Source: Candidatus Poribacteria bacterium
GTDB lineage: Bacteria; Poribacteria; WGA-4E; JAJDTR01
Direction of reading: 5' to 3'
Assembly: GCA_028820655.1 (NCBI GenBank)
Contig: JAPPIK010000025.1
Location: 62,001-126,000, forward strand
DNA: 64,000 bases
The stretch's first letter is position 1. Every line of letters begins with the position of its first letter. The translations under genes were made by a program, and so were the position numbers. Below the pieces are notes generated by a model that saw nothing but the letters and a program-made list of their open reading frames with translations, made no database searches and was not told where the DNA came from. This document shows positions 9,876-18,895 of this stretch, piece by piece.

Positions 9876-10439
9876 TCAGCCTTTTAAGAAATTCTCCAGC
9901 AAATTTTTCCCTTCAGGAGTCAAGATCGACTCGGGATGAAACTGTACTCCCCAGATCGGGTAGTCTTTATGTCGAATACCCATGATTTCGTCTTCGTCGG
10001 TCCACGCAATGACTTGGAGGCACTGCGGAATACTGTTCTTTTCTACAATCAGCGAGTGATATCTCGTCGCCTCAAACGGATTCCGCACCCCCGCGAAGAT
10101 CTCCCGACCATCATGCTCGATCATCGATGTTTTCCCGTGCATCAATCGGTCTGCACGGACGACATTCCCGCCAAAAACATCTCCAATACACTGATGCCCC
10201 AGACAGACACCCAAAATCGGCACCTTTCCCGCAAAAGATCGGACGACGCCGCAGGAAATCCCAGCTTCACGAGGTGTACAGGGGCCGGGTGAAATGACGA
10301 TTTTTTCCGGTGAGAGGCGCTCAATTACATCCAACGTTATTTTGTCGTTTCGATGGACTGCAAGTTCCGCCCCCAACTCACCAAAGTATTGGACGAGATT
10401 GTAGGTAAACGAGTCATAATTGTCAATCATCAGAATCAT
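9876..10439 (-). CDS. trpG: Anthranilate synthase, glutamine amidotransferase subunit
   Basis: 187 aa class I amidotransferase. It opens [20 protein letters not shown]. The oxyanion motif SPGPCTP lies at 50-56, the nucleophile C79 is in LGVCLGHQ, and the His/Glu pair H168/E170 is in VQFHPESI. It supplies ammonia to TrpE for making anthranilate, or, as in many bacteria, to PabB for p-aminobenzoate. trpE is in the same operon, separated by a methyltransferase gene that ends 9 nt upstream. Regulated with hisI and trpE by the leader at 13.3-13.5 kb. Confidence 0.93.
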
Positions 10440-10448
10440 CGTTGTCTC

Positions 10449-11135
10449 CTAAGTGTTCCCCCGGATTCTCATCATCGCGTTTCCCCCTTTTTGAAACTCA
10501 TAGGTTACAGGACAGATGTCAACTGTAAAGCCCATTCCCCGGAAAAAAGATTGTATGGGTGAAATGTGCCGTGACGTTCTACAATCAAGCGCCAGTAGAG
10601 GAAAGATTCGTACCTCTCGCGAAACCCGGCAAAGCTCTTGTACGGATTCTCGGTGAAAAGCAAGTGATAACTGATCCGAATATAAAAAGAGCAAATGAGA
10701 GCAGACAGCAAAATCAAACTGTCCATCGTCAAAATAGAGTTTCGGCAATGACCACGGAAGATAACGCCCCTGCGCTCTGCCCATTTCGAAATCCTGCAGA
10801 AACATCCGCATCCGTTGAAGCCGGTAGCAGCCAAGATGTTCAGGGTTCGAAAAAAAATCCCACACAAAATCATCAGGCTTCTGTTTTACTTGATGGATAA
10901 CAGTATCATAGGTCTTTTCGATTCGAAGTTCAATCTGTTCTTTTGAAAAGGCGTAGATTGGATCGATTGATACCACGGTTTGTCCGAGCGCCTTCATCTC
11001 ACTGTTAAAACTGGCTGGCCCATCACCAACTCCCAAGATACGTGATGCCAATTCTTCGTTGGAGAGCATGAACATCTGTCTGTATTCCTCGAGTGATCGC
11101 CCCCATGGGACGACTTGATCGAGTTCCACACTCAC
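10449..11135 (-). CDS. SAM-dependent methyltransferase-like protein inside the trp operon
   Basis: 228 aa. Motif I of a class I methyltransferase is visible as SRILGVGDGPASFN, followed by an acidic residue at the end of strand 2 (VVSIDPIYAFS). The later DGQFDFAVCSHLLFLY matches motif IV. Related proteins are annotated only as SAM-dependent methyltransferases; the substrate is unknown. It sits between trpE (20 nt upstream) and trpG (9 nt downstream), a compact arrangement suggesting co-expression. No role in tryptophan synthesis is established for this family. The C-terminal part (FRGMGFTVDICPVTYEFQKG) completes the fold. Confidence 0.75.
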   Translation of the reverse strand: MSVELDQVVPWGRSLEEYRQMFMLSNEELASRILGVGDGPASFNSEMKALGQTVVSIDPIYAFSKEQIELRIEKTYDTVIHQVKQKPDDFVWDFFSNPEHLGCYRLQRMRMFLQDFEMGRAQGRYLPWSLPKLYFDDGQFDFAVCSHLLFLYSDQLSLAFHRESVQELCRVSREVRIFPLLALDCRTSRHISPIQSFFRGMGFTVDICPVTYEFQKGGNAMMRIRGNT

Positions 11136-11155: not shown

Positions 11156-12640
11156 CTACTCCAACCCAGCTTCAGCCAGTTTGATTGCCCTTAGCACGGC
11201 TTGGGCTTTGTTGAGTGTCTCTTCGTATTCGGTTTGCGGAACGGAATCCGCTACGACTCCGCCGCCTGCTTGCACGTAAGCAATGCCATCCTTAACAATA
11301 AGAGTACGAATGATGATAGCCGTGTCGGCATTTCCGGAAAAGCTAAAATATCCGGCTGCCCCACCGTAGGGACCGCGGCGTGTCGGTTCTAGTTCGTCAA
11401 TAATCTCCATCGCTCGAATCTTGGGCGCCCCTGAAAGTGTTCCGGCAGGTAGACATGCACGGATAACATCAAATGCCGTCACGTTTTCACGAATCTCGCC
11501 AACCACATGCGAAACAATATGCATGACATGCGAATAGCGTTCAATTGCCATCATCTCACTCACGCGTACAGTGTGGAATTTGCAAACTCTCCCCAGATCG
11601 TTGCGCCCAAGATCAACGAGCATGACGTGTTCGGCACGCTCCTTTTCGTCAGCAATCAGCTCCTCAGCCAGTGCCACATCTTTAGCGGCCGCATTTCCGC
11701 GCGGCCGCGTCCCGGCGATTGGACGCGTTTCCGCAATTCCATCCTCAACTCGAACCATCATTTCCGGCGAAGTACCGGCTATCTGAACATCTCCCAGCTT
11801 CAAGTAATACATGTATGGTGACGGATTGACGGTGCGCAACGCACGGTACACGTCAAAGGTGTCAACTGACAACGGGGTGCACAACCGCTGCGAGGGAACG
11901 ACTTGGATAATGTCACCCGCGGCAATATATTCCTTCGCCTGTAGAACCACGCTTTCATATTCCGCCTGTGTGAAATTCGATTCCGGTTCAACCTCGTCCG
12001 TGACTGTACCCCGTGTTTTTGAAGGGGGCATCAACAAGAGATTTCTCAACTTGCCAATCAGCATGTCGACACGATCAATCGCACGCCGGTACCCACCTTC
12101 AACGTCCCCATCAACTCGAGCGTTCGCCACTGCCGTGATCCGATGACCAACCCGATCAAATATCAACAAGGTATCGGTAATCATAAAGAAGCAATCTGGC
12201 AGCCCTCGATCATCTTCCGTGCTGTCAGGCAACTCTTCAAAAAAACGCACAGCGTCATAGCTCAGGTAGCCGACGGCACCGCCGTGGAAGCGCGGCAATC
12301 CTTCGACCTCTACAGGCTTATAGCGCCCCATCAACTTCTCAAGTTCGCCGAGCGGATAACCGCTTTCGAATTCGGTTGTCGTGCCTGCCTCTAAATCCTG
12401 TATCCTCACCTGATTTCCTTTACTCTGAAACAGAATTGAAGGCTCACTGCCGAGAAACGAATACCTTCCAACGTGCTCGCCACCTTCGACACTTTCCAGC
12501 AAGAAACTGTATTCACCGGCATCGATCTTTTTGTATGCCGACACAGGGGTTTCCATATCTGCCAAAATAGATTTAAAGACAGGAATCAAGTTTCCGTGTT
12601 GAGCTTTTTTTCGAAAATCTTCCAAACTCGGATAATACAT
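11156..12640 (-). CDS. trpE: Anthranilate synthase, component I
   Basis: 494 aa, full length. The feedback-inhibition motif LLES is at residues 47-50, suggesting tryptophan inhibits the enzyme. Chorismate-binding signatures are present: FTQAEYESVVLQAKEYIAAG, IVPSQRL-type QVVPSQRL, IAGTRPRG, DEKERAEHVMLVDLGRNDLG and LPAGTLSGAPKIRAMEII. It makes anthranilate from chorismate with ammonia from TrpG. The gene starts 52 nt after hisI and is part of the same transcript, downstream of the mixed His/Trp leader. The YERYSHVMH-type sequence near the end is normal for TrpE and favours it over PabB. Confidence 0.95.
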   Translation of the reverse strand: MYYPSLEDFRKKAQHGNLIPVFKSILADMETPVSAYKKIDAGEYSFLLESVEGGEHVGRYSFLGSEPSILFQSKGNQVRIQDLEAGTTTEFESGYPLGELEKLMGRYKPVEVEGLPRFHGGAVGYLSYDAVRFFEELPDSTEDDRGLPDCFFMITDTLLIFDRVGHRITAVANARVDGDVEGGYRRAIDRVDMLIGKLRNLLLMPPSKTRGTVTDEVEPESNFTQAEYESVVLQAKEYIAAGDIIQVVPSQRLCTPLSVDTFDVYRALRTVNPSPYMYYLKLGDVQIAGTSPEMMVRVEDGIAETRPIAGTRPRGNAAAKDVALAEELIADEKERAEHVMLVDLGRNDLGRVCKFHTVRVSEMMAIERYSHVMHIVSHVVGEIRENVTAFDVIRACLPAGTLSGAPKIRAMEIIDELEPTRRGPYGGAAGYFSFSGNADTAIIIRTLIVKDGIAYVQAGGGVVADSVPQTEYEETLNKAQAVLRAIKLAEAGLE

Positions 12641-12692: not shown

Positions 12693-13076
12693 TCACGAGT
12701 ACACTTCATCGGGATCAAATACCTTCTCACCTACAATCCGACTGGAAACGCCGTCGGAAGAGACTTCCCTAAAGAAACAGGAGCGATAACCGACGTGGCA
12801 TGCCCCGCCTTTTTGTTCCACCTTAATCAGTAGAGCGTCGCCGTCACAGTCATAGGCAACGGACTTGACGGTTTGAGTATGCCCCGAAGTCTCCCCTTTA
12901 ATCCAGTACTCCTGACGGGATCGACTCCAGAAACACACACGCCCGGAGTCCAAAGTTTTCTGCAATGCATGGCGATTCATAAAAGCCACCATTAGAACTT
13001 CATTGCTTTCATCATCCTGAATGATGGCGGGAATCAAACCGGACTGGTCAAATTTGAGTTCATCAAGTATTTCCAT
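12693..13076 (-). CDS. hisI: Phosphoribosyl-AMP cyclohydrolase
   Basis: 127 aa, HisI domain only, without a fused HisE. Characteristic stretches are [38 protein letters not shown] and the metal-binding DCDGDALL, with later Cys residues in [13 protein letters not shown]. It opens the purine ring of phosphoribosyl-AMP in histidine synthesis. A near-perfect ribosome site (GGGAGGAT) precedes the ATG at 13076. It is the first structural gene after the leader peptide and terminator, which explains why the leader carries His as well as Trp codons. The other his genes are not in this window. Confidence 0.95.
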
Positions 13077-13252: not shown

Positions 13253-13292
13253 AAAAAAAGCCGTAGACAAGGAGTTTCGTATGCCTACGGCT
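13253..13292 (-). terminator. Attenuator terminator of the hisI-trpEG operon
   Basis: On the minus strand, AGCCGTAG (13292-13285) pairs with CTACGGCT (13266-13259), followed at once by a run of T (to 13253). The loop is 18 nt. It lies 28 nt after the leader-peptide stop and 176 nt before hisI. A competing antiterminator is possible: GTGCCTTTGGT (13338-13328), inside the last leader codons, can pair with GCCGTAGGCAT of the 5' arm. The terminator is seen directly; the switch is inferred. Confidence 0.85.
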
Positions 13293-13320
13293 CTGATTAA
13301 TCAGATATGATTTCAACACT

Positions 13321-13449
13321 CTATCTTACCAAAGGCACACTCCCATCCTGAATGGCACGCCGCCACCAATGCCAATGATGAACAACAGTTTGAAGTTGAG
13401 GTCGTCGATCAAGAGTTTGCATGGGTTTACTTAATTCACGAGTCATCAT
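13321..13449 (-). CDS. Leader peptide with consecutive His and Trp codons (trpL/hisL-like)
   Basis: A 42-codon ORF starting with a double ATG at 13449 and ending with TAG at 13321-13323. Residues 24-29 read His-His-Trp-His-Trp-Trp: six regulatory codons in a row, encoded by CAT and TGG. It lies between a good promoter and a rho-independent terminator, upstream of hisI, trpE and trpG. Classical attenuation peptides carry runs of the amino acid made by the operon. Here both products, histidine and tryptophan, are represented. TGGCAT at 13374-13369 can pair with GTGCC of the antiterminator arm, giving the expected 1:2 pairing. Existence of the ORF is certain; ribosome stalling is inference. Confidence 0.82.
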   Translation of the reverse strand: MMTRELSKPMQTLDRRPQLQTVVHHWHWWRRAIQDGSVPLVR

Positions 13450-13466
13450 CGCGATATTACTGCTAA

Positions 13467-13496
13467 ATACTATCACAAACCACGTTAAGATGTCAA
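13467..13496 (-). promoter_or_regulatory. Sigma-70-type promoter of the hisI-trpEG operon
   Basis: Minus strand: TTGACA at 13496-13491 (perfect -35), an 18-nt spacer, and TAGTAT at 13472-13467 (4 of 6 matches to the -10). Transcription would start near 13460, about 11 nt before the leader-peptide ATG, so the leader ORF lies at the very 5' end of the transcript as in known trp and his operons. Bases 13497-13612 hold nothing else recognisable. Confidence 0.7.
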
Positions 13497-13612: not shown

Positions 13613-14800
13613 TCACTCTTTCTCGATGCCAGTTTCACGGTGGTATATCGCCGCCTTTGTCATACCGACCAGCGTAATAACCCAATTCATGCCATGACTC
13701 GTATATACAAGCGATTGATCGTCCTTCCATTCCGCGAAACCCCAATCTAGAAACGCTTCAAGTGCTGCATCCAATTCCTCATCCGACAGGTTGCATTCGC
13801 TTCTGATATCTTCTCGGGAATTTTTCTCGTTACCGAAGAAAAAGAGGTGCTTGAATATTCTGATAGTGTGGGAGTTGGTGAAGGCGTCCGCCAAGACCGC
13901 TACATTTTCGTCATCGGCGTCAGGGCTGTTGAAATATTCTTCCTGTTTCATGGTGAGAATACTAGCCGCCATATGCTGTGCTCCATCAGCCCCAACTTCA
14001 CCGAACGCGCCTATAGTTCCCCATCGAATCATTTGACCATCATCTTCCGGGATTTGTCGAAACTCTTTGACAGCCTGTTCAACAGTATCCTTAGCTGGCG
14101 GCGAGGGACTCGGATCCAAGCGCTCCAATAGTTGGCGAATTACGGCTAATTCTTCTCGGACCGAAATGATGTCTTGCGTGACCTGTTCGCCAAATTTGCG
14201 GCTGATCTCAATCCTGCTATCGGTTTGTCCAGTGCTCATACGTAACATCTCCTCTTTTAATCGTCTTCTAGCGCGATACATCATGCTACTAACAGCAGCA
14301 ACCGATATGGCTAGGCGGTCTGCAATCTCTTTGGAGGAGCAGTCGTCGTAATAGAAAAGCTTGATGATGTCGCGATGCGCTGGAGAAAGCGCATCAATTG
14401 CCCTTCGCAGCAAATCTTCCCGCTCTTGCTGCTCTATCATATCGTGAGGGGACGGCTCTTCATAGCAGCTGTATAACTCATGGACTTTGCCATCTTTGTA
14501 GATGCTGGCAATGTCGTCGAAACGCACGGTAGATTTTCGGCGTCTGACCCAAGAAACTGCGGTATTGACGACGATTCGACGCAACCATCGTCCGAATTTT
14601 CCTGCTTGCCGCAATGTATCAAGTCTAAAATACGCTTCAACGAACGCCTCCTGGGCAATCTCTTCGGCTTCGGATATATTCCCAACCTGACGAAATGCCC
14701 ACTGCTCTGCCAATAACTGGTAAGCATCCACCAACTTGCGATAATCATCAAGGTTGCCCGCCAACACGGATTCCACCAATCGGGCATCATCATTATTCAT
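13613..14800 (-). CDS. ECF-type RNA polymerase sigma factor with long C-terminal extension
   Basis: 395 aa from ATG 14800, chosen because AAAGGAA lies 9 nt upstream; an earlier in-frame start would add 14 residues. The first 190 residues are an ECF sigma: region 2 (AEEIAQEAFVEAYFRL, GKFGRWLRRIVVNTAVSWVRRR) and region 4 (LSPAHRDIIKLFYYDDCSSKEIA). The remaining roughly 200 residues include a linker and a segment, SREDIRSECNLSDEELDAAL, resembling a winged-helix (ArsR-like) domain. ECF sigmas usually end after region 4, so the extension may replace an anti-sigma as the sensor. No anti-sigma gene is adjacent. It lies between the leader region and leuD. Confidence 0.88.
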   Translation of the reverse strand: MNNDDARLVESVLAGNLDDYRKLVDAYQLLAEQWAFRQVGNISEAEEIAQEAFVEAYFRLDTLRQAGKFGRWLRRIVVNTAVSWVRRRKSTVRFDDIASIYKDGKVHELYSCYEEPSPHDMIEQQEREDLLRRAIDALSPAHRDIIKLFYYDDCSSKEIADRLAISVAAVSSMMYRARRRLKEEMLRMSTGQTDSRIEISRKFGEQVTQDIISVREELAVIRQLLERLDPSPSPPAKDTVEQAVKEFRQIPEDDGQMIRWGTIGAFGEVGADGAQHMAASILTMKQEEYFNSPDADDENVAVLADAFTNSHTIRIFKHLFFFGNEKNSREDIRSECNLSDEELDAALEAFLDWGFAEWKDDQSLVYTSHGMNWVITLVGMTKAAIYHRETGIEKE

Positions 14801-14834
14801 GCAATCTGTTCCTTTTGCAGAGGTTACACTGTAT

Positions 14835-14860
14835 TGTCGCACATCACCTCAAAATGTTAC
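14835..14860 (-). promoter_or_regulatory. Possible ECF-type autoregulatory promoter
   Basis: Upstream of the ECF sigma gene the minus strand has GTAAC (14860-14856), 16 nt, then CGACA (14839-14835). A -35 containing AAC and a -10 beginning CG is the usual ECF promoter form, and ECF sigmas often drive their own gene. With only two short boxes this is weak evidence. Confidence 0.25.
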
Positions 14861-15044: not shown

Positions 15045-15635
15045 TCAAATTCCTCTCTTACTTTCGTATGCCGATATCTCGGTTTCAAACTGTAACGTCC
15101 AACCAATTTCATCCAACCCGTTCAAAAGACACTGTTTCTGAAACTCACCTATCTCGAATTCGTGATAGACGCCATTCGGTTGGGTCACCGTCTGTGATTC
15201 CAAATCGATAGCTAGCGCATAACCCGCTTGAGCTTCGATTTGCGCAATCGTGTCCGCGACAATATTCGCCGGCAAGGTAAGAGGCAATAGTCCATTCTTG
15301 AAGGAATTCCCCCGGAAAATGTCCGCAAACGACGGAGCGATGATTGCTTTGAATCCATACTGCTGCAGTGCCCAAGGTGCATGCTCCCGAGAGCTGCCGC
15401 AACCGAAGTTCGCACCGGTAACAAGGATGCTCGCCGATTGATAACGCGGAGCGTTTAAGACAAACTTCGGATTGGGGGTTCCGTCGTCAAGGAAACGCCA
15501 ATCATAAAAGAGATAATTCTCAAAGCCCGCTCTCTCGATACCTTTGAGAAATTGTTTTGGAATAATCTGGTCGGTGTCTACGTTTATTCGATTAAACGGT
15601 GCCGCAAGCCCCGTATGTTTCTTGAACGCTTCCAT
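15045..15635 (-). CDS. leuD: 3-isopropylmalate dehydratase, small subunit
   Basis: 196 aa, the usual length. It opens [31 protein letters not shown]. The swivel-domain motif [42 protein letters not shown] is clearly present in overlapping parts ([26 protein letters not shown]). It forms the heterodimer with LeuC that isomerises 2-isopropylmalate to 3-isopropylmalate in leucine synthesis. It follows leuC by 96 bases on the same strand. A gap of 244 bases to the sigma gene shows no T-rich hairpin. Confidence 0.95.
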
Positions 15636-15731
15636 TCTAGGTCTTCTCCTAAAAAACTCCCAAGGAATCTCACCGTGAGACTTCTGTGCTATCTATCATT
15701 CGGTACGAAATAACTGTCGCACCTCTATGCT

Positions 15732-17141
15732 TCAGTATGATTCCCACTCTCGTATGTCAACAAAATGTCCGGCAACCGCAGCAGCAGCCGCCATCTGCGG
15801 ACTGACGAGGTGGGTTCGCCCCCCTTTTCCTTGCCTACCCTCAAAATTTCGATTGGAAGTGCTAGCACAACGCTGTTCCGGCATCAGGATATCCGGATTC
15901 ATCCCCAAGCACATGCTACAACCTGCTTCGCGCCACTCGAAGCCGGCCGCACGAAAGATCTCGTCCAATCCCTCCGCTTCGGCTTGACGTTTTACACTTG
16001 CAGACCCCGGCACAACAAGGGCATTCACCGTTTCCGCAACCTTACGCCCCTTTGCAACCTCTGCGGCAGCGCGAAGATCGCTTATGCGGGAGTTCGTGCA
16101 ACTTCCGATGAAAACCTTATCAACTTCAACATCGGTAATATTGGTTCCCGGTATAAGTCCCATGTACTCCAGGGCGCGTTCGGTTGCCATTTTGGCATCG
16201 TCGGTCGGCATCTCCCCCGGATCGGGCACAACATCGGTCACATCAGCCCCCATGGCAGGATTTGTGCCCCACGTTACCTGGGGCGCCAACGATTGCGCGT
16301 CAATGTGAAGCGTCTTATCGTAGGTCGCGCCTTCATCTGTTGGTAATTCTCGCCACTCTTCCACCGCTCTGTCAAAATCCTGTCCCTTCGGGCTAAATAG
16401 GCGATTTGCCAAATATTCATAGGTCTCGTCGTCCGGCGCAATTAGCCCCGCTCGCGCCCCCGCCTCGATGGACATATTGCAAACGGTCATCCGCTCCTCA
16501 ATACTCAAGGCTGATATTGTCGAGCCGGTGTACTCAATCACCGTGCCGGTACCGCCATCCGTCCCGATTCGACGGATAATTGACAGTATAATGTCCTTGG
16601 CGGTGACACCGCGCCGCAGACTGCCATCAACTCGAATCTCGAACGTCTCAGGTTTGTGGTACAACAGACACTGAGTGGCAAGAACATGCTCAACTTCACT
16701 TGTGCCTATTCCGAGTGCAAAAGCGCCCATTGCGCCATGTGTTGAAGTATGACTATCGCCACAACAGATTGTCATTCCGGGCTGAGTGATGCCAAGTTCC
16801 GGCCCAATGACGTGAACTATGCCTTGTTCGGGACTATCAATATCGTACAATGTAATTCCAAACTCTTCGCAGTTCTTAGCTAACGTCTCCATCTGTTTTA
16901 CTGCTATCTGATCTTTTATGGGAAGCGATCTATCCGTTGTCGGGACATTGTGATCCATAGTGGCAACAGTGAATTCCGGATGCCGCACCGATCGCCCCGC
17001 GAGCCGCAGTCCTTCAAATGCCTGTGGTGTGGTAACCTCATGTATCAGGTGCGCGTCCATATAGAGCACGGTGGCTTCATCCGGCATCTCCCGAACAACG
17101 TGATTGTTCCATATTTTCTCAAACATCGTCATTGGTTCCAT
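15732..17141 (-). CDS. leuC: 3-isopropylmalate dehydratase, large subunit
   Basis: 469 aa, aconitase superfamily. Motifs include [26 protein letters not shown] and the 4Fe-4S ligands: Cys in [14 protein letters not shown] and the pair in [10 protein letters not shown]. It catalyses the isomerisation of isopropylmalate with LeuD. The start at 17141 is supported by TAGGAGATAGGAT directly upstream; a second Met lies at codon 4. No leucine-rich leader peptide is visible in the 265 bases upstream (17142-17406), where TATACT near 17178 on the minus strand could be a -10. Confidence 0.95.
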
Positions 17142-17406: not shown

Positions 17407-18570
17407 TCAACTTGGAGCGCTACGCATCAATTCAGCTTTAATTGAAGCAATCGATTGGCTAAGTAAGAAATCCTCGTCCAGCAGCGATTCGATGCGTTGG
17501 ACACTATGGACAACCGTAGTGTGATGGCTATGCCCAAAACCTCGGCTTATCTCTTTTTGAGAGAGGGTTGTTAACTGTCGCGCAAGGTACATCGCTATTT
17601 GCCGAGGAAGCACATATCGCTTTCCTCGCCTTCTCGAACATAATTCCGACAAAGTAATTTGAAAATAGCGTGAAACCGCTTCTTGGATCCTTTCGAGGCT
17701 CACATGGTGGGGTGAATTAGAACTCAAGTGCCCGCCCTCTATTACACGGCGCGCAACTTCCACGTTAAGGTCGGAACCGAGTCGTGCCTCCGCCATAAGG
17801 CGGTTTAGACATCCTTCAAGTTGGCGGACATGTCCGGTCAGGTGTTTTGCAATGAAACGAATTACTCGCGGAGGTACAGGCCCCCAATTCCGTTCCTTCA
17901 ACTTCTGTTTCAGGATAGAAACACGCAGATCGAATTCAGGTGGGAGGATTTCTACATGGGCACTGTAGTTAAAATCATCGGCTACAGCCAAGTACGATTT
18001 CAAAAATTCAGGAGGACGATCACAAGTACAAACCAGTTTACAATTCTGCGACGAAATGTGACTCAGCAAATCAACAAATTCGTCTTGAACTCTTTGCTCA
18101 TGGGTCAAAAAATGAAGATCGTCAATTAACAAGAGGTCAAGGTTGTAATACCGTTGCCTCATTACGGAATATTTGTGAGGGTGATTTATTGATTGAATAC
18201 ACTCGCGCACAAATTTCTCGGATGGCACACAAAACACTGTTTTATTCGGATGGTTTGCGCGAAATTGGTTTCCGATGGCATGCAAAAGATGTGTTTTGCC
18301 GAGACCCACGCCACCAAATACAAGTATAGGTCCGTCCAAATTGTCCGTTTCGTTTATCGTATCTATTGCTCTCTCATAAGCGGTCCGATTACTCTCGCCA
18401 ACGACAAATCGCTTTAAAGTTAGGACAGGATTCAATCCGGAACTTGATACCGAACGTGCTCGCGAAGTTGAAACGCCTTGTGACAGTTGAGGAGATTGTG
18501 ACTCCGGGGAACTCTCATTGGCCTCAGATTGGGAGGGAACTCTTTTTCTAGCCTCATCCGAGTGATTCAT
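17407..18570 (-). CDS. DnaA-like AAA+ ATPase without domain I and without the arginine finger
   Basis: 387 aa from ATG 18570 (AAGGAA 9 nt upstream). The first 50 residues are Ser/Gln-rich and do not resemble DnaA domain I. The AAA+ part is clear: Walker A GGVGLGKTHLLHAI, Walker B LLLIDDLHFL, sensor I CTCDRPPEF. Box VII, which in DnaA contains SRF with the inter-subunit arginine finger, reads ADDFNYSAH here, with Asp in place of Arg. The C-terminal domain IV is intact (PRQIAMYLARQL, then ISRGFGHSHHTTVVHSV), so DNA-box recognition is expected. This looks like a DnaA paralogue or a divergent initiator. No dnaN, gyrB or recF lies nearby. Confidence 0.85.
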   Translation of the reverse strand: MNHSDEARKRVPSQSEANESSPESQSPQLSQGVSTSRARSVSSSGLNPVLTLKRFVVGESNRTAYERAIDTINETDNLDGPILVFGGVGLGKTHLLHAIGNQFRANHPNKTVFCVPSEKFVRECIQSINHPHKYSVMRQRYYNLDLLLIDDLHFLTHEQRVQDEFVDLLSHISSQNCKLVCTCDRPPEFLKSYLAVADDFNYSAHVEILPPEFDLRVSILKQKLKERNWGPVPPRVIRFIAKHLTGHVRQLEGCLNRLMAEARLGSDLNVEVARRVIEGGHLSSNSPHHVSLERIQEAVSRYFQITLSELCSRRRGKRYVLPRQIAMYLARQLTTLSQKEISRGFGHSHHTTVVHSVQRIESLLDEDFLLSQSIASIKAELMRSAPS

Positions 18571-18895
18571 ACTTGCGTTCCTTGAAGTTCGAGAACTGTG
18601 ACGCAACTGGGGTTTTCTCGTTGACGAGTATTTTTTATGAGGAATGGGAGTTTTATTTTATCAAAATACGGGAGTTTGATCAAGCCTTTTTTTGAAACTT
18701 TGGAACAAATTTCAAGCAGTGCGAAACTCGAAATTCGATGTAAGAATTCATCCACTAGGATGAACCTTCACGCATTTCAATAGGTCATTGACACAATTTA
18801 ACCTTGCCGTTATACTTACGTCCCGAAACTGAGTTAAGCGTAGTTACAGACCGCAGATCGCCAGTTTTTCGTTACAATGGTAGGAAGGCTGCTTT
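18571..18895. other. Divergent intergenic region
   Basis: 325 bases between the divergent DnaA-like and lipoprotein genes. It is AT-rich near 18640-18720 with runs of T and A. I see no DnaA-box cluster, no tRNA and no clear promoter pair. A perfect TTATCCACA lies further right at 18987-18995, inside the lipoprotein gene. Confidence 0.4.

Follow-up and report, generated by a model that had tools for sequence, protein, structure and literature searches.

Can one leader peptide report on the supply of two amino acids at once? The question is raised by a locus in a 64,000-nucleotide stretch of a Candidatus Poribacteria genome (contig JAPPIK010000025.1, positions 62,001 to 126,000; the whole stretch is hereafter called the window), in which a short ORF with interleaved His and Trp codons precedes hisI, trpE and trpG. 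As judged from the sequences compared here, the feature is a real ribosome-mediated transcription attenuator before hisI-trpE-(ORF)-trpG, and it is likely to have two amino-acid inputs, His-tRNA and Trp-tRNA.

Organisation of the leader region

The following elements were located in the window:

13467-13496, minus strand: sigma-70-type promoter, TTGACA at 13496-13491 and TAGTAT at 13472-13467, 18-nt spacer, 10/12 match
within 13467-13496, minus strand: alternative -10 element, GATAGT, with 16-nt spacing
13321-13422, minus strand: leader ORF of 33 codons, MQTLDRRPQLQTVVHHWHWWRRAIQDGSVPLVR, from start ATG 13422-13420 to stop TAG 13323-13321
13412-13420, minus strand: strand 1 (protector), GCA and ACTCT pairing with strand 2, one mismatch
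13363-13380, minus strand: regulatory codons CAT CAT TGG CAT TGG TGG (His-His-Trp-His-Trp-Trp), CATCATTGGCATTGGTGG
13333-13340, minus strand: strand 2, GTGTGCCT, within the last codons of the leader ORF
13279-13286, minus strand: strand 3, AGGCATAC, antiterminator with strand 2, eight pairs including one G-U
13253-13294, minus strand: intrinsic terminator (3:4), arms 13294-13282 and 13269-13257, T run to 13253
12693-13076, minus strand: hisI, phosphoribosyl-AMP cyclohydrolase (PF01502, E 7.8e-36)
11156-12640, minus strand: trpE, anthranilate synthase component I (PF00425 and PF04715)
10449-11135, minus strand: ORF of 228 aa between trpE and trpG, without a Pfam match
9876-10439, minus strand: trpG, glutamine amidotransferase (PF00117, E 4e-63)
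13613-14842: ECF-type sigma factor gene, on the other flank of the leader region from hisI

The elements are ordered as promoter, short ORF, strand 2 at the end of the ORF, terminator and hisI-trpE. hisI has its sole match in the source genome at this locus and is single-copy, and its product is 71-86% identical to HisI of named Poribacteria relatives. By eye, the 228-aa ORF may be methyltransferase-like. Elsewhere in the window, a DnaA-like ATPase ORF (17407-18606) lies upstream of leuC/leuD-like genes on the same strand (15045-17141), an assignment made by sequence judgement.

The TTGACA/TAGTAT promoter described in the initial annotation is present on the minus strand, and promoter-like sites with at least 10 of 12 matches were found in 45 of 65 relatives' loci, compared with 6 of 65 shuffled sequences. 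The same annotation had given the leader ORF 42 codons. The frame is indeed open from an upstream in-frame ATG at 13449, which would lengthen the leader to that size, but the start kept in relatives is the inner ATG at 13422 (55 of 66 distinct leaders), giving 33 codons. Over these 66 leaders no stop interrupts the 990 codons of the leader frame, while the other two frames contain 69 and 91 stops. Shine-Dalgarno pairing is near zero in the window and modest in the relatives (median -3.45 kcal/mol). The run of six His and Trp codons, likewise seen at the outset, was not matched when the upstream region was shuffled 5000 times with its dinucleotides preserved; the densest shuffled cluster had four in six codons.

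Conservation among Poribacteria

hisI with up to 1.5 kb of upstream sequence was collected from nearly all accessible Poribacteria genomes, yielding 79 loci, in nearly all of which trpE directly follows hisI. At 70 of the 79 the leader was present with a cluster containing both His and Trp, mostly HWHWW and in 69 cases with at least two Trp, which bears out the codon conservation that the initial annotation had proposed to look for. Among the remaining nine, L012, L017 and L162 run into a contig end or lack part of their upstream sequence, L160 and L161 come from genomes in which hisI is divergent and does not adjoin trpE, and L120, L138, L149 and L153 lack the whole attenuator. Retention of hisI-trpE with loss of the run, which had been named beforehand as an observation against the proposal, was encountered solely where the entire attenuator is gone (genomes G003, G021, G024 and G025).

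Among the 66 distinct leaders, the three core places hold Trp in 64, 64 and 59 cases; the central place holds His in 63, and the place preceding it does so in 53. The leaders fall into six families, in which the position before hisI-trpE is fixed and the cluster always contains His, while the order varies (HHHWCWWH, WWWHWRGH and HRHW, for example).

Several individual loci showed peculiarities of their own. An in-frame insert of about 45 nt with the inverted repeat TCTGCCCGTGTGGGCAGA, possibly a small mobile repeat, splits HW from WW in L121 and L126 (G068 and G076). G047 has two hisI copies, and its contig C149 may represent contamination, because the leader on it (L012) is of another family's type, HHWHWWWH. 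An in-frame TGA is present close to the end of hisI in G071 (L127), the trpE of G026 is matched in two separate parts, which points to an insertion, and at 2274-2518 of L020, in the vicinity of the leader in one Poribacteria genome, there is a cobalamin riboswitch (RF00174, 95.8 bits).

Mutually exclusive RNA structures

A T-tailed terminator was confirmed after the leader stop codon, at 13294-13253, although the distance between them is 26 nt and not 28 as first stated. With a loop of 12 nt it is missed by a general terminator scan, whose limit is 8. Strand 3 overlaps the 5' arm of the terminator, and the early suggestion that this arm also takes part in an antiterminator was well founded: strands 2 and 3 pair and covary. 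In an alignment of 38 distinct rows, delimited with anchors and, in part, by their complementarity, which biases them towards pairing, the terminator had 98.5% of cells paired (85.5% in shuffled alignments) and 40 both-side changes (10.6 shuffled), and the antiterminator 88.5% (82.3%) and 17 (5.7), contrasts that are inflated by related sequences. Individual rows of this alignment were adjusted: L002, once corrected, duplicated another row and was merged with it, the positions in L018 and L158 were assigned manually, and L151 was excluded. Pairing in both structures dropped when the partners were slid against each other, and the covariation among relatives that the initial annotation had called for was thus seen in terminator and antiterminator alike.

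The protecting pair turned out differently from what had been proposed. TGGCAT in the Trp-codon region and GTGCC had been put forward for this role, but their pairing probability is near zero and they were rejected as the 1:2 stem; the partner of strand 2 is instead the leader's 5' end. There, strand 1 reads TCACACTCC in one large family and GCAAACTCT in the window. The 1:2 duplex of the relatives averages -13.3 kcal/mol, compared with -8.3 for shuffled sequences and -5.4 for the His/Trp run, and is weaker in the window (-8.7) than this average. Since strand 1 lies near the leader start, the His/Trp run falls in the loop that separates strand 1 from strand 2.

Strand 2 was found in frames 1, 2 and 0 relative to the leader at 44, 15 and 8 loci, respectively, and this occurrence in all three frames indicates that it is kept as RNA. 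The median distance from the start of strand 2 to the stop codon is 17 nt, a spacing at which a ribosome on the stop codon would cover strand 2. With strand 4 absent, strands 2 and 3 of the window fold at -19.8 kcal/mol, near the -19.4 of the terminator. Folded as a whole, the leader shows no exceptional stability (z -0.68), which is what alternative structures that exclude one another would lead one to expect.

Two further variations on these structures were observed. In L016 and L127 the 5' arm of the terminator is altered to CCTTATGCCCCCG and strand 2 can pair in a shifted register, GGGGG with CCCCC, possibly a compensatory shift to judge by these two sequences. L028, L133 and L136 carry a second inverted repeat, AAATTATGCC-TTAAAT-GGCATAATTT, between the attenuator and hisI.

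The short ORF could in principle be a small protein gene, or noise, with a terminator of its own and unrelated to hisI-trpE. The fixed position before hisI-trpE in all six families, the mutually exclusive and covarying stems and the freedom of strand 2 from the reading frame all speak against this, and we regard it as extremely improbable. What was found is the set of parts expected of a ribosome-mediated attenuator, namely an ORF with regulatory codons, a terminator, an antiterminator and a protector stem with the codons in its loop.

Proposed mechanism

In the mechanism that we propose, RNA polymerase would start just after 13467 and transcribe the leader while a ribosome translates it. With both tRNAs charged, the ribosome would reach the stop codon and cover strand 2, the 3:4 terminator would form and hisI-trpE-trpG would be off. 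If His-tRNA or Trp-tRNA runs short, the ribosome is predicted to stall in HHWHWW, between strands 1 and 2; strand 2, freed from strand 1, could then pair with strand 3, no terminator would form and the operon would be transcribed. Without translation, the 1:2 stem would be expected to form and the operon to be off. We infer from the layout that the operon is regulated in this way and that it responds to each of the two amino acids.

Operons without hisI

G022 and G023, sister species of one genus, have trpE without hisI and retain the attenuator, providing a natural control that comprises these two species of a single genus. The G023 leader, MQTRWPRSKVISCVKRWWYTSWGRSVPV, has four Trp and no His and retains strands 2 to 4, with GGAGTGTGCC as strand 2, while the leader of G022 contains RWRH, with one His and one Trp. 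Going by the kinship labels of the genomes, the loss of His in the hisI-less attenuator is probably derived, given that mixed leaders occur not only elsewhere within this order but also in families of the class that are further removed. No conserved single-input His or Trp leaders were detected before hisB, hisG, trpC or trpA in 25 Poribacteria genomes, and the leader does not therefore belong to a pathway-wide system.

Short leaders in Verrucomicrobiota

Nine Verrucomicrobiota genomes with hisI-trpE have a structurally different attenuator in which every leader contains both His and Trp, as HW, HWW or WHWWH, for instance. These leaders are very short, at 8 to 11 residues (MTNYWHWWHI, MKFFWHWWHF, MTTYWDWWHL, MKFTPHWWRP, VSLPAIHWWHW, VKLSLHWWR, MTTLHWRD, VTLHWRLC and VILQHWCIS), with His and Trp adjacent or nearly so. 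In most of them GACGGGC or a similar sequence comes right after the stop codon and is complementary to a terminator arm, GCCCG; at one of the nine loci, L320, the terminator is a candidate. No His/Trp leader was found before trpE without hisI (29 Verrucomicrobiota loci) or at Verrucomicrobiota hisI loci without trpE. Three hisI-trpE loci of the same Verrucomicrobiota group (L306, L307 and L312), together with more distant ones, are without the leader, and no convincing hisI-trpE leaders were seen in the loci fetched from Omnitrophota, Actinobacteria, Auribacterota and BRC1/Sumerlaeota.

The lengths of these leaders bear on whether the HWHWW segment might be read as a peptide and not codon by codon, through nascent-chain arrest that senses a free ligand. 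TnaC is an arrest peptide of this kind, sensing tryptophan, and strong amino-acid conservation over much of the leader within one Poribacteria family would suit such a function. The families, however, share little outside His and Trp, the His and Trp places tolerate substitution and reordering, and 8 to 11 residues are short for an arrest peptide, which makes this explanation very unlikely in our view.

Is histidine read?

If the stalling of ribosomes at codons is accepted as the basis of the switch, the His codons might still be passengers in an ordinary Trp attenuator, kept by a conserved CAT context in the RNA or by inheritance and not read. The nucleotide sequence offers some ground for this. 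CAT outnumbers CAC by 156 to 10 in the leader cluster, compared with 326 to 224 in hisI and trpE; at the central place the numbers are 59 and 6, and with so few synonymous changes a constraint at the nucleotide level is possible. Within one family, moreover, the run is nearly identical in nucleotides. The His codon at place -10 of one family belongs to strand 1 and is explained by pairing, and the high His content of the 5' half of the leader was for this reason partly rejected as evidence of sensing.

On the other hand, strand 2 is not a pairing partner of the His/Trp run, and His stands at several places around Trp, with other orders in other families. It also occurs in the Verrucomicrobiota leaders, which are unrelated and in three cases contain a single Trp and a single His, and it is gone from one hisI-less trpE attenuator, that of G023. 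Passenger His codons accordingly seem unlikely to us. The reading of both tRNA pools, as predicted in the initial annotation, draws support from the 70 loci, the covariation, the hisI-less control and the Verrucomicrobiota leaders. In these sequences the codon content of the leader matches the gene content of the operon, with His codons accompanying hisI and Trp codons accompanying trpE and trpG, as would be the case in a multi-amino-acid leader.

Relation to known attenuators

The trpL leader peptide has 14 codons, and in the thr and ilvGMEDA leaders each encoded amino acid is able to cause readthrough. Some actinobacterial trp leaders (Corynebacterium, Streptomyces) have His nearby. The known multi-input leaders, to our knowledge, sense amino acids of linked pathways.

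With the E. coli trpL type (RF00513) the locus shares the promoter, the short ORF with Trp codons, the three alternative stems, the terminator and the downstream trpE; it differs in its interleaved His codons, in hisI as first gene, in its unrelated sequence and in a leader of 33 codons. The E. coli/Salmonella hisL type (RF00514) likewise has His codons and a his biosynthesis gene in first position, whereas here Trp codons are interleaved and hisI is the only his-pathway gene of the operon. In cmscan searches neither the Trp_leader nor the His_leader model of Rfam matched at E values up to 5 in the window and up to 1 in 14 loci, and the T-box model had no match in the window or in these 14 loci. 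Codons for more than one amino acid are a feature in common with the enterobacterial thr (Thr and Ile) and ilvGMEDA (Ile, Val and Leu) leaders, whose operons are listed as attenuator-controlled (PMC1183508). Those leaders serve linked pathways, while the pathways of His and Trp are separate and are joined here by gene order and by their use of PRPP. The actinobacterial trp leaders are, as here, Trp-codon attenuators outside Proteobacteria; a survey of Actinobacteria (PMC1262725) makes no mention of hisI and reported no RNA element conserved ahead of the histidine operons.

No published mixed His/Trp leader, hisI-trpE attenuation or Poribacteria leader was found in a literature search that mostly did not extend to subscription journals. 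Judging from the sequence features, the mechanism would be classical and the combination of His and Trp as inputs new, with a prior description being possible. On balance, we favour the view that an either-or hisI-trpE attenuator for two separate pathways has arisen at least twice, in Poribacteria and in Verrucomicrobiota, in unrelated RNAs, with codon content following gene content and His codons being lost after hisI leaves.

In a 2010 survey (PMC2965389), leader-peptide attenuators were known from no phyla other than Proteobacteria and Actinobacteria, to which Firmicutes were newly added, and the present loci extend this type of control to Poribacteria and Verrucomicrobiota. If the two-input reading is true, attenuators can be rewired to whatever genes come to share an operon, and the leader would offer a clean system for studying how two starvation signals are weighed within a single stretch of mixed codons.
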